DNA of 64,000 nt, taken from the NCBI RefSeq assembly GCF_001007875.1, contig NZ_CP011412.1, forward strand, positions 558,001 to 622,000, read 5' to 3'. The position numbers and the translations under genes were made by a program. A model generated the notes under the pieces. The model was given only the letters and a program-made list of their open reading frames with translations. It was not told where the DNA came from and did no database searches. Below are positions 48,561 to 53,378 of the stretch, one piece after another; the first letter of the stretch is position 1, and each line of letters opens with the position of its first letter. The DNA comes from Sedimenticola thiotaurini. GTDB lineage: Bacteria > Pseudomonadota > Gammaproteobacteria > Chromatiales > Chromatiaceae.

Positions 48561-48691
48561 CCCGACAGCCCGGGTTGGGCAACCGGGTACGGAAAGGTTA
48601 AAGATTGATTTTAGGCAATTACCCGGCTGTTCCGGGTACCTATAATCCTCCACTCATACGACTATTCGATCAATTTCAGGTGATAAGCGCG

Positions 48692-49036
48692 ATGATGGGT
48701 TTCAGATTGACTGTAGCGACCCTGTTGGTACTACTGCTCAGTAGTGTGGCAAGGGCGGACGGCATGGATGACGTACAGCTGGCCGCGGTGCAAAAACTGG
48801 GCGAACTCAACGGCATGGCGCTTAACTGCCACTATCTGATTGAAACCCGCCGTATGAAAAAAACTCTGGTACTGACACTTCCGAAACGGCGTCAGTACGG
48901 GGAGTTGTTTGATAGCACCACCAATACCGCGTTTCTCAAAATCCTCGAGAACAGGACCGGTTGTCCGGAGGAGGGAGTCTTCAGCGAGCAGGTGGACGCA
49001 GCGATTCTGGAACTGGAAGCTGCTTTCGCCAATTAA
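48692..49036 (+). CDS. Small exported protein of unknown function
   Basis: A 114-residue protein with a clear signal peptide (MMGFRLTVATLLVLLLSSVARADG). The mature part has two cysteines, in ALNCHYLIETRRMKK and NRTGCPEEG, that may form a disulfide. No family is recognised. CAGGTGA precedes ATG 48692. The next gene, an exported ZnuA-like/Sco1 fusion, begins 42 bases later on the same strand, so an operon is likely and the two may act together in the periplasm. Confidence 0.7.
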   Translation: MMGFRLTVATLLVLLLSSVARADGMDDVQLAAVQKLGELNGMALNCHYLIETRRMKKTLVLTLPKRRQYGELFDSTTNTAFLKILENRTGCPEEGVFSEQVDAAILELEAAFAN

Positions 49037-49078: not shown

Positions 49079-50536
49079 GTGAACAGGCTAACCGCAGTTT
49101 TTTTCAACTCTTTACACTCCATTCTTCTGGCATTGTTGCTGCTGGTCAGCCAGCCACTCCTGGCCGATTCGGCTTTTCGGGTGGTCACCAGTATCAAGCC
49201 AATCCACTCCATCCTGTCGGGGCTGATGGTTGGTACCGAGGGACCGCAGCTGCTGCTGGATGGTGAAAAGCTGCCGTTCAATTACCAGATGGATGCCGAG
49301 CAGCAGACCAGCCTGGAACAGGCGGATCTGATTGTCTGGGTGGGGCCGGAACTGGAGCAATTTCTGGTTAAACCGGTTGCCCAGGCACAACAGCGTGGCG
49401 CCCGGGTCGTTACCCTGCTGGATAACCTGGAGCTGAAGATCCTGCCGTCCCGCTGGGACAAGCGGGAAGATGCCGAGCTGCGTGACCCCTATTTCTGGCT
49501 GGACAGCCGCAATGTGCTGATTCTGGTGGATGAGCTCTCCCGGGCACTGATGGATGCGGATACCGGCCGGGCCCATCTCTATCGAAGAAATCGTGCCCAG
49601 CTGCTGGGGCGGGTGGCTGAACTGGATCGCAAACTGGAGTACGGCTATCGCGGACTGAAAAGCGGTGTGGGTATGGCTTACTACGACACGCTGCAATATT
49701 TTGAACAGGCCTATGCGCTGAAGATCCGGGGCGTACTGGCCCAAGCGCCTTATCAGCCGGTTGATGCCCTCTCCCTGTTACAGAATCACGCCAAACTGAA
49801 AGAGGGCTATTACGCTTGTCTGTTGACCGAATACGGTATGCCGATGCCGGAACTCCCCCTGCTGACTGAAGATGTGGATATCAATATCGGCACCCTGGAC
49901 AGTTTTGGCGCCACGATGGAGGCCGGACCGGATCTCTACTTTGAGCTGATGCAAAAGAATACCGATACCATCAAGGCCTGCCTCCAGTTTGATGGAGACG
50001 CCGGGCAGGTTGCCGCCAAGGAGGAGCTCTATGAGCCGGAAACCGCCAAGGTGGGTGCCAAGTTCATGCTGGTGGATCACAATGGCCAGATCTTCACTGA
50101 CAAGGATATGCTGGGGAAATTCCAGCTGGTCTATTTTGGTTACACCTTCTGTCCCGATATCTGCCCCACCTCGTTGCAGGTCATATCACAGGCGCTGAAC
50201 CTGCTCGGTGAGCGGGCCAATCTGATCAGACCCTATTTCATTACCGTCGATCCGGAACGTGACAATGTGGATGTGATGAAAAACTATGTGAAATACTTCA
50301 ACGAAAATCTGGTGGGTCTGACCGGTAGCAGAAGCATGATAGACCGGGTGGTTAAAGGATACAGGGCCAGGTATGAGAAGGTGGAAGAGGAGGGCGGCGA
50401 CCCCGATCTCTATATCATGGATCACACCGCCAGCGTCTACCTGATGGCGCCGAATGGAGAGTTCATCACCAAGTTTGCCCATGGCATCTCTGCCAAGCAG
50501 ATGGTGGATGCTCTGAACGAATACCTGCCGAAATAA
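49079..50536 (+). CDS. ZnuA-like domain fused to Sco1/SenC copper chaperone domain
   Basis: A 485-residue exported or membrane-anchored protein. After a signal (residues 1-30) comes a ZnuA/TroA-type binding domain (about 33-300: VVTSIKPIHSI, QADLIVWVGPELEQFL, GTLDSFG). Its three zinc-ligand histidines appear replaced: F66, Y138 and Y202 stand where E. coli ZnuA has His. The C-terminal Sco domain (about 325-485) is complete, with C358-P-D-I-C362 in YFGYTFCPDICPTSL and H449 in IMDHTASVYL, the copper ligands. Known Sco proteins deliver copper to the CuA site of cytochrome oxidase or act as thiol-disulfide reductases. GTG 49079 follows AGGTGGG. No oxidase genes are near. The fused lobe probably no longer binds zinc and may bind a partner protein. 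Confidence 0.85.
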   Translation: MNRLTAVFFNSLHSILLALLLLVSQPLLADSAFRVVTSIKPIHSILSGLMVGTEGPQLLLDGEKLPFNYQMDAEQQTSLEQADLIVWVGPELEQFLVKPVAQAQQRGARVVTLLDNLELKILPSRWDKREDAELRDPYFWLDSRNVLILVDELSRALMDADTGRAHLYRRNRAQLLGRVAELDRKLEYGYRGLKSGVGMAYYDTLQYFEQAYALKIRGVLAQAPYQPVDALSLLQNHAKLKEGYYACLLTEYGMPMPELPLLTEDVDINIGTLDSFGATMEAGPDLYFELMQKNTDTIKACLQFDGDAGQVAAKEELYEPETAKVGAKFMLVDHNGQIFTDKDMLGKFQLVYFGYTFCPDICPTSLQVISQALNLLGERANLIRPYFITVDPERDNVDVMKNYVKYFNENLVGLTGSRSMIDRVVKGYRARYEKVEEEGGDPDLYIMDHTASVYLMAPNGEFITKFAHGISAKQMVDALNEYLPK

Positions 50537-52225: not shown

Positions 52226-52493
52226 GCCATTCTATCGACAGCCCGCTGATCAGTGCAAGGCGCTTTTTCCGAGCTGTGACCGGGTTCTGTGGGAATGGCG
52301 TCACCACCATCTGCCGGTGAGTTGATAACCCGTATTTGATGTGGTTGATCGGGACAGTGACTTATTACCAGAATAAGATTAATCGAATGTTCTTCTCTGG
52401 ATTGATCTGCTAGATTCACACTGCTCACCTATAAAAATCATGAGCAGAATAAGAGGCCACGACCAGGGCCCATCAACATCTTGGGAGGAAATC

Positions 52494-53378
52494 ATGCGAA
52501 CTGTCCGTCTTGCAGCGGTGCTGCTAATACTCTGTTTATCTTCACTGTCACTGGTTGCCCAGGCAGAGGAGCGACTCCGTCCTTTTGTGCTGGCGGAGAT
52601 CGTCCAGACCCCACTGGATGCCAAGGTGGCAACAGTCAGGGAGGCACTGACCGGCGCCGGCTTTTCCATTGCGGGTGAATATGCCCCCTATGCGGGCGCA
52701 CGGATTCTGATCATTACCGATGAGCTGTTGCGCAAGCAGGCCGCGGCATCCCCCATGGGCGGTTTTGGGGCGGCGCTGCGGGTCGCCCTGACCGAGCGGG
52801 ACGGGTTGGTACAGGTCAGTTATACCGACCCGCAATGGATGGGGAATGTTTACCGAATGGCGGGGGATTTCATGACGCTGTCGCAACGTCTGAAGAGCGC
52901 TTTGGGACGGGACAAAACCTTCGGCACGGAGGGTGGTCGCACGAGGGAGAATCTGCGTGAGTATCACTACATGATGTTCATGCCCTATTTCGACGATCAG
53001 GTGGAGTTGGCCAGTTTTGACTCTTACCAGGCCGCTCTGGACGCGGTCGAAGCGGGACTGGCCGCTGGAAGAGGTGGGGTTGGCAAGATCGCCCGGGTGG
53101 ATGTGTTGGGCAAGGATGAGTCCCTGTTCAGTGTCTCTGTCACCGAGGGAGCGGGAGCGGATGGGGCGGTGATGAAGATTATCGACCAGGGCGAGTTACG
53201 CCATACCGCCCATCTTCCCTATGAGCTGCTGGTGTCCGGTAAGCGGGTCTATATGCTGCACGGCAAGTTCCGCATCGCCCAGAGCTTTCCCGATCTGACC
53301 ATGTCCACCTTTATGAAAATCTCCGATGCGCCGGATGGGATCGAAGCGTCATTGAAGATGGCCGTGGGTGGTAAGTAG
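52494..53378 (+). CDS. Exported protein of unknown function
   Basis: A 294-residue protein with signal peptide (TVRLAAVLLILCLSSLSLVAQAEE). The mature part starts LRPFVLAEIVQTPLDAKVATVREALTGAGFSIAGEYAPYAGARILIITDELLRK, and a DUF302-like fold is conceivable but not proven. GGGAGG just before ATG 52494 fixes the start. It is transcribed away from the cobalamin riboswitch; the 270 bases between have no obvious promoter on this strand that I can name. No cysteines or histidine clusters stand out. Confidence 0.75.
   Translation: MRTVRLAAVLLILCLSSLSLVAQAEERLRPFVLAEIVQTPLDAKVATVREALTGAGFSIAGEYAPYAGARILIITDELLRKQAAASPMGGFGAALRVALTERDGLVQVSYTDPQWMGNVYRMAGDFMTLSQRLKSALGRDKTFGTEGGRTRENLREYHYMMFMPYFDDQVELASFDSYQAALDAVEAGLAAGRGGVGKIARVDVLGKDESLFSVSVTEGAGADGAVMKIIDQGELRHTAHLPYELLVSGKRVYMLHGKFRIAQSFPDLTMSTFMKISDAPDGIEASLKMAVGGK

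Follow-up and report, generated by a model that had tools for sequence, protein, structure and literature searches.

Nitrous oxide, a greenhouse gas, is removed by NosZ, an enzyme described as being limited by copper supply (PMC6530538). Accounts of how this copper arrives assign NosL to the CuZ site and regard the CuA site as filled by Sco/PCuAC (PMC7558416, PMC6530538). Sco proteins are described as classically serving the CuA site of oxidases; Paracoccus mutants lacking senC2 (Sco), pcuC, or Pden_4445, the last named in the source beside the other two with no function assigned, are reported to reduce less N2O at low copper, and SenC2 is thus a Sco protein that supports N2O reduction under these conditions (PMC7558416). 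Members of the Sco1/SenC family (PF02630), such as Bradyrhizobium ScoI, human SCO1, and Paracoccus SenC2, share a thioredoxin fold, a CxxxC motif with a distal His, and a periplasmic location. To our knowledge, the route of copper into the CuA site of clade II NosZ has been little studied.

The window analyzed here, a stretch of 64,000 nucleotides from Sedimenticola thiotaurini, encodes a Sco protein that differs from these relatives in that a lobe of about 270 residues precedes the Sco domain and a small helical protein is encoded with it. The lobe shares with ZnuA/TroA proteins (PF01297; e.g., Escherichia coli ZnuA and AztC) the fold, the site Asp, and a Cys pair that aligns with ZnuA C252/C306, but it differs in that the three site His are replaced, no ZnuB was found at the locus, E187, R191, and Q210 are invariant, and a Sco domain is fused to it. 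The zinc-binding protein AdcA, solved with zinc bound (7jj9), likewise carries a second domain behind a ZnuA-like one in a single chain. That second domain is ZinT-like and differs from the Sco domain of the window fusion. NosL, the nosDFYL maturation set, and PCuAC are copper chaperones of NosZ whose genes adjoin the pair in several loci, but they have no sequence relation to it, and NosL is assigned to CuZ (PMC6530538). The features of the window, in order along the forward strand, are as follows.

48605..48618 (+): FNR/DNR-like box TTGATTTTAGGCAA, a match to TTGATNNNNRKCAA
48641..48646 (+): -10 hexamer TATAAT, read from the sequence, 32 bp from the box, center to center
48692..49036 (+): small secreted partner gene, 114 aa from the ATG at 48692, with a hydrophobic leader; directly 5' of the lobe or fusion in 71 of 75 related loci
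49079..50536 (+): lobe-Sco fusion gene, 485 aa, GTG start
49181..49981 (+): ZnuA-fold lobe, residues 35 to 301 (PF01297, E 2.9e-32; Z about 30 to E. coli ZnuA for the model)
49277..49279 (+): F67, in the column of ZnuA H60
49490..49492 (+): Y138, in the column of ZnuA H143
49682..49684 (+): Y202, in the column of ZnuA H207
49898..49900 (+): D274, the retained Asp, in the column of ZnuA D279
50057..50464 (+): Sco domain, residues 327 to 462, including C358, C362, and H449 (PF02630, E 1.5e-47)

A first-pass annotation, made from the sequence before any database search, had described one reading frame joining a TroA/ZnuA fold to a full Sco1 domain, and this description was borne out by Pfam, by an AlphaFold2 model, and by the related loci. 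Behind a hydrophobic, signal-like N-terminal leader, the ZnuA-type domain precedes the Sco domain, and Pfam recovered both in that order above their curated cut-offs (PF01297, 112.6 bits versus 29; SCO1-SenC, PF02630, 161.3 bits versus 22.8). The model (mean pLDDT, 91.2; pTM, 0.73) is confident inside each domain, with the lobe matching E. coli ZnuA (2osv; Z 30.1, rmsd 2.2 over 261) and the C-terminal domain matching an Arabidopsis Sco (6n5u; Z 26.6, rmsd 1.7 over 159); the best PDB sequence matches of the Sco domain are ScoI/SCO1. The alignment used for modeling held 59 rows including the window, 10 of the 69 usable fusion frames having been omitted as near-duplicates or contig-cut. The Sco motif is intact, with C358, C362, and H449 present as originally reported, and its columns are conserved in all family rows that reach them (71 of 71 for the two Cys, 69 of 69 for the His). 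A strand-reversed reading of frame 49079-50536 gave nothing coherent.

To find related loci, genome contigs were scanned with two lobe-derived peptide patterns, which matched 99 stretches, 75 of them confirmed; lobes that have diverged far from these patterns may have escaped the scan. The 75 loci belong mostly to Sedimenticola, Thiodiazotropha, tubeworm and clam symbionts, and Chromatiales MAGs, with one alphaproteobacterium, Terasakiella. Lobe and Sco share one frame in 70 of them, so the fusion is more than chance, and an assembly artefact or a chance read-through is ruled out. The other five comprise two loci cut by contig ends (L114 and L118), one frame change (L137), and two stand-alone lobes (L080 and L134). 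L137 (6001-7355), from a Lamellibrachia symbiont (Eratosthenes 1), holds lobe and Sco in two overlapping frames just upstream of nosZ, reflecting either a frame change or an assembly error. The stand-alone lobe of Terasakiella (L134, 5902-6828; L, Y, H, and K at the four site columns) has neither the small gene nor Sco in its stretch, and the next gene encodes 125 aa with no Pfam match. In a search of plasmid records, 383 matched parts of the fusion protein and none covered 80% of it in one place; the partner matched none.

The partner is a new helical protein family. In the window it has no Pfam or NCBIfam match, and among 50 members no Pfam family occurs in more than two (best E, 0.0068). 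These 50 sequences share two invariant Cys, and the AlphaFold2 model of 89 residues consists of four helices (mean pLDDT, 97.1) with no match in the PDB at E 0.001 or better. The best structural hit, a helical cytokine complex at Z 6.0, is uninformative because the partner is a helical bundle, and a PDB profile search returned unrelated receptors at best (E 0.5). The four loci lacking an upstream match to the partner profile are two cut at the contig start and the two stand-alone lobes.

Site columns of the lobe were assigned by MAFFT alignment to E. coli K-12 ZnuA (from NC_000913). The first-pass annotation had put the three lost His at F66, Y138, and Y202; the two Tyr stand, and the first position is F67, residue 66 being Pro. 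Its statement that all zinc ligands are replaced holds for the three His of the window but not for the Asp, which is kept as D274, so the three His are replaced, yet not every site residue is. Across 76 rows (the 75 related loci plus the window), 55 lack His in all three columns, but 16 keep one or two and 5 keep all three, so permanent loss of all ligands is not fully right as a description of the family. Among rows with a letter, an aromatic residue or His (F, Y, W, or H) occupies the first His column in 66 of 75 cases, the second in 74 of 76, and the third in 74 of 76; the remaining rows have Leu, Gln, or Thr. The D274 column is D in 57 of 74 rows and N in 16. Parsimony assigns frequent changes to the His columns (19, 15, and 20 steps), yet they remain for the most part aromatic, and the cleft may therefore be filled or stacked. 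Only Phe or Leu occupies the first two His columns in 19 of the 76 rows. The invariant residues gained by the lobe (E187, R191, and Q210, each in 76 of 76 rows) are accompanied by Y190 and Y201, each in 75 of 76.

Lobes with replaced His group together in the tree (support, 100), and a long branch leads to their clade. The five loci with three His, all of the Thiodiazotropha group and all with N at the Asp column, nest in the best trees inside an 18-row Thiodiazotropha-group clade (support, 99; 18 of 18 rows in a second tree), and parsimony on these trees gives one loss of His followed by one gain in the five loci. The best tree thus favors the view that the triad was regained there, but AU tests do not reject a tree in which the three His were simply retained (p 0.263 and p 0.272).

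A role in ordinary zinc import was rejected: the site lacks its His, and searches of the 75 lobe loci (L064-L138) and of the surroundings of the window gene (L060) yielded no ZnuB homologue. ATPase matches at the lobe loci reach 28 to 34% identity at most, NosF among them. In contrast, the nearest stand-alone relatives with three His and the Asp (L016-L019 and L036-L039) adjoin ZnuC in eight of eight loci and ZnuB in six of eight, two stretches being short. The genome of the window also encodes another ZnuA-like protein (L062, 8308-9342; G000:C1 near 3216616), with no ZnuB or ZnuC match at E 1e-10 in the surrounding 18 kb.

The lobe is not always attached. Four genomes carry the small gene with Sco and no adjoining lobe (G047, G030, G318, and G510, the last with both in one frame). 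Two of these are Rosetta stone variants that encode a separate lobe of the family elsewhere in the genome (G047, 386 bits; G510, 369 bits), while the only lobe match in G318 scores 93 bits and G030 has none; the lobe is thus dispensable, as these last two pair the small gene with Sco and have none of this kind. In the Sco tree, 14 solo Sco rows stand outside a clade (support, 97) that unites the fused with the small-gene-linked domains and in which the Sco of G510 groups among the fused ones. Together, these genomes and this tree suggest that the small protein and Sco may be the constant core, with the lobe joined or separated more than once. The stand-alone lobe of G047 (F, Y, H, and D at the site columns; L058, 7455-9939) lies downstream of a thioredoxin/DsbA-like gene and a DsbD-type membrane gene.

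Genes for nitrous oxide reduction are frequent neighbors of the pair. At 34 of the 75 loci, nos genes (nosZ, -B, -D, -G, -H, -F, -L, or -Y) lie within about 6 kb; in 41 the examined stretch contains none, and several of these are cut by contig ends. The names NosB, NosG, and NosH were assigned by position and Fe-S domains. nosZ itself is nearby in 26 loci, 25 times downstream on the same strand, with a gap of 149 to 508 bp (706 in the split L137), and once divergent, and the neighboring NosZ is of the Sec-dependent clade II type (TIGR04246). Full clusters run in the order small gene-fusion-nosZ-B-D-G-H-F-L-Y in G162 and G122 and nosZ-B-D-G-H-F-L-Y-small gene-fusion in G442, and L116 holds a whole nos cluster with the pair at one end. 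Sco and PCuAC genes stand directly before the pair in L117 and L123, and Sco does so in L128. In three clusters where the pair adjoins nosZ (L159 with L142, L160, and L161), no Sco or PCuAC gene follows nosY within 5 to 8 kb. In the complete genome of the window (G000), the nos cluster is of clade II, has all its genes, and is followed by Sco and PCuAC genes of its own (L141, G000:C1:2436000-2455500), with the pair 1.8 Mb away from nosZ. NirS-type genes lie near 5 of the 75 loci.

Co-occurrence was compared at two taxonomic levels. Within the taxonomic family (194 genomes), a lobe was counted, fused or not, at 280 bits or more (next match, 207 bits), and clade II NosZ was called over the cut-off in 78 genomes and by bits per position for 6 fragments. 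The lobe was found in 60 genomes, clade II NosZ in 84, and both in 52 (Fisher P = 9e-17, too small a value because the genomes are related, so that here as below Fisher values overstate the evidence). Thirty-two of the 84 NosZ genomes have no lobe. Eight lobe genomes have no NosZ, seven of them at most 82% complete; the other is that of a Solemya velum symbiont (G013, 99% complete), in which the fusion is present and NosZ was not found. Cytochrome d1-domain proteins of the NirS type occur in 54 of the 60 lobe genomes (Fisher P = 5e-15, again among related genomes), and since they co-occur nearly as well, NosZ is indistinguishable within the family from denitrification in general. Across the class (369 genomes), the small gene was found in 11 genomes of seven families, and clade II NosZ in 23 (21 over the cut-off plus two fragments), namely, 10 of the 11 small-gene genomes versus 13 of the 358 others (Fisher P = 1e-12, genomes related). 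Clade I-type NosZ showed no association with the small gene in the same 369 genomes (1 of 11 versus 35 of 358; P = 1). The eleventh genome (G400, 87% complete) is the one with clade I-type NosZ, the only NosZ type found in it; there, the small gene and the start of the lobe lie at a contig end (L149).

The region upstream of the pair contains an FNR/DNR-like box. It is the only match to TTGATNNNNRKCAA in the window, and 37 of 100 shuffles also give a match, so the box is not significant alone. In class II FNR promoters, the box is centered at -41.5. The window box would have this layout if transcription starts 7 nt downstream of the -10 hexamer. With a pattern set after the window had been seen, related loci, and mostly coding controls, box plus -10 at the set spacing with at most three mismatches occurs in 40 of 67 upstream regions versus 6.1% of random same-locus stretches, and the box alone with at most one mismatch, under the same limits, occurs in 18 of 66 versus 5.7%. 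TTGATCAAAGTCAA is found upstream of nosZ in the genome of the window. These patterns point to a putative FNR/DNR-like promoter at many loci, including that of the window, and thus to anaerobic expression.

The Sco half and the ZnuA fold are of known kinds; on the joined, ligand-stripped form with a new partner and a link to NosZ, searches of an open full-text collection, which omits most subscription journals, returned no paper. We think it reasonably probable that the two genes form a periplasmic copper delivery module for clade II NosZ, probably for its CuA site, in which the lobe is a former metal-binding protein reused for docking. The Sco domain would hand Cu(I) to the CuA site or reduce its thiols, a role proposed on the precedent of SenC2/PCuAC in Paracoccus. 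The lobe would no longer carry metal to an ABC importer and may instead dock NosZ, the small protein, or some further accessory factor in the manner of a clamp, with the small protein as a co-chaperone; the unit would then do the Sco part for clade II NosZ. In favor of this module are the intact CxxxC and His, which bind Cu(I) in Sco proteins, the near-constant adjacency of the partner, the linkage to and co-occurrence with nos genes, the Rosetta stone variants, the putative promoters, and the Paracoccus precedent. Against it stand the distance of the window's pair from nosZ in a genome whose nos cluster has its own Sco and PCuAC, the 41 loci with no nos gene in the examined stretch, the Solemya symbiont with the fusion and no NosZ, the 32 NosZ genomes with no lobe, the NirS-type proteins that co-occur nearly as well, and the dispensability of the lobe. 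The first-pass annotation had likewise imagined a binding protein turned into a docking or sensing lobe, possibly in copper delivery or periplasmic redox; it mentioned neither the partner gene nor the promoter. The replaced His triad, the kept fold, and the absence of ZnuB matches at 75 loci agree with this idea, and docking is still the best guess, but D274 is kept and the loss of His is incomplete in the family. For cytochrome oxidase, whose assembly the annotation had proposed to test, the outlook is poorer, as genomic context and co-occurrence point to nitrous oxide reductase instead.

In one alternative, the protein would help assemble cytochrome oxidase as other Sco proteins do, or would supply copper in the periplasm generally, and the nos link would reflect a denitrifying lifestyle. 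Such a role would follow the classical service of Sco proteins to oxidase CuA (PMC7558416), and it would suit the Solemya symbiont that has the fusion without NosZ, the near-equal co-occurrence of NirS-type proteins, and the Sco and PCuAC that the window's own nos cluster already possesses. It accounts poorly, however, for the pair standing immediately beside nosZ or nosY in many loci, for a class-wide link with clade II NosZ and none with the clade I type, for the separation of the fused and small-gene-linked Sco clade from the solo Sco rows, and for promoters that point to anaerobic expression, and we regard it as unlikely, if still deserving of attention. A periplasmic thiol-redox device, in which Sco reduces the CuA cysteines of NosZ, the lobe brings the reductant, and no copper is carried, appears less probable again. 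The thioredoxin fold with CxxxC, the solved TlpA-Sco complex (4txo) among the PDB matches, the two invariant Cys of the partner, and the thioredoxin/DsbA-like and DsbD-type genes ahead of the stand-alone lobe of G047 would all fit such a device, but the copper-site His, needless for a pure thiol reductase, is invariant in the rows that cover it, and the DsbD neighborhood was seen in one genome only.

The cleft of the lobe might also still bind something, either an organic ligand or, through Tyr and Asp, a different metal; one Thiodiazotropha group would then have restored or retained its three His. The strong constraint of the His columns to F, Y, W, or H, the frequency of Asp at the D274 column, and the five loci with three His and N speak for this idea. 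Where the first two columns offer nothing but Phe or Leu, ligands could come from no more than the third column and the Asp, and no match was found at the loci to the ZnuB that, like ZnuC, commonly adjoins the relatives with three His, so we give this reading little credence. Returning to the copper delivery module for clade II NosZ, a more elaborate form of it can be proposed tentatively, and we consider it possible rather than probable. Here, a four-helix partner, a metal-stripped lobe that clamps protein, and Sco as the source of copper would make up a three-part NosZ metallation device, induced in the absence of oxygen. The device would be specific to clade II and would parallel the Sco/PCuAC route to CuA. 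In one Thiodiazotropha group, the lobe would have regained its His triad; if so, the same clamp could become metal binding again in that group. As a conserved, co-occurring unit with a new helical family, the pair makes the question of copper for the CuA site of clade II NosZ testable in culturable Sedimenticola, and the lobe offers a clear case of a nutrient-binding protein that lost its ligand site and gained a new role inside a chaperone.

Two further observations concern neighboring genes. Farther along the window, a frame of 312 aa (52440-53378) has no Pfam or NCBIfam match at E 0.1. A family of secreted pentapeptide-repeat proteins, present at 18 loci (e.g., L094, 2336-3130, and other Thiodiazotropha loci), is often encoded two or three genes before the fusion.
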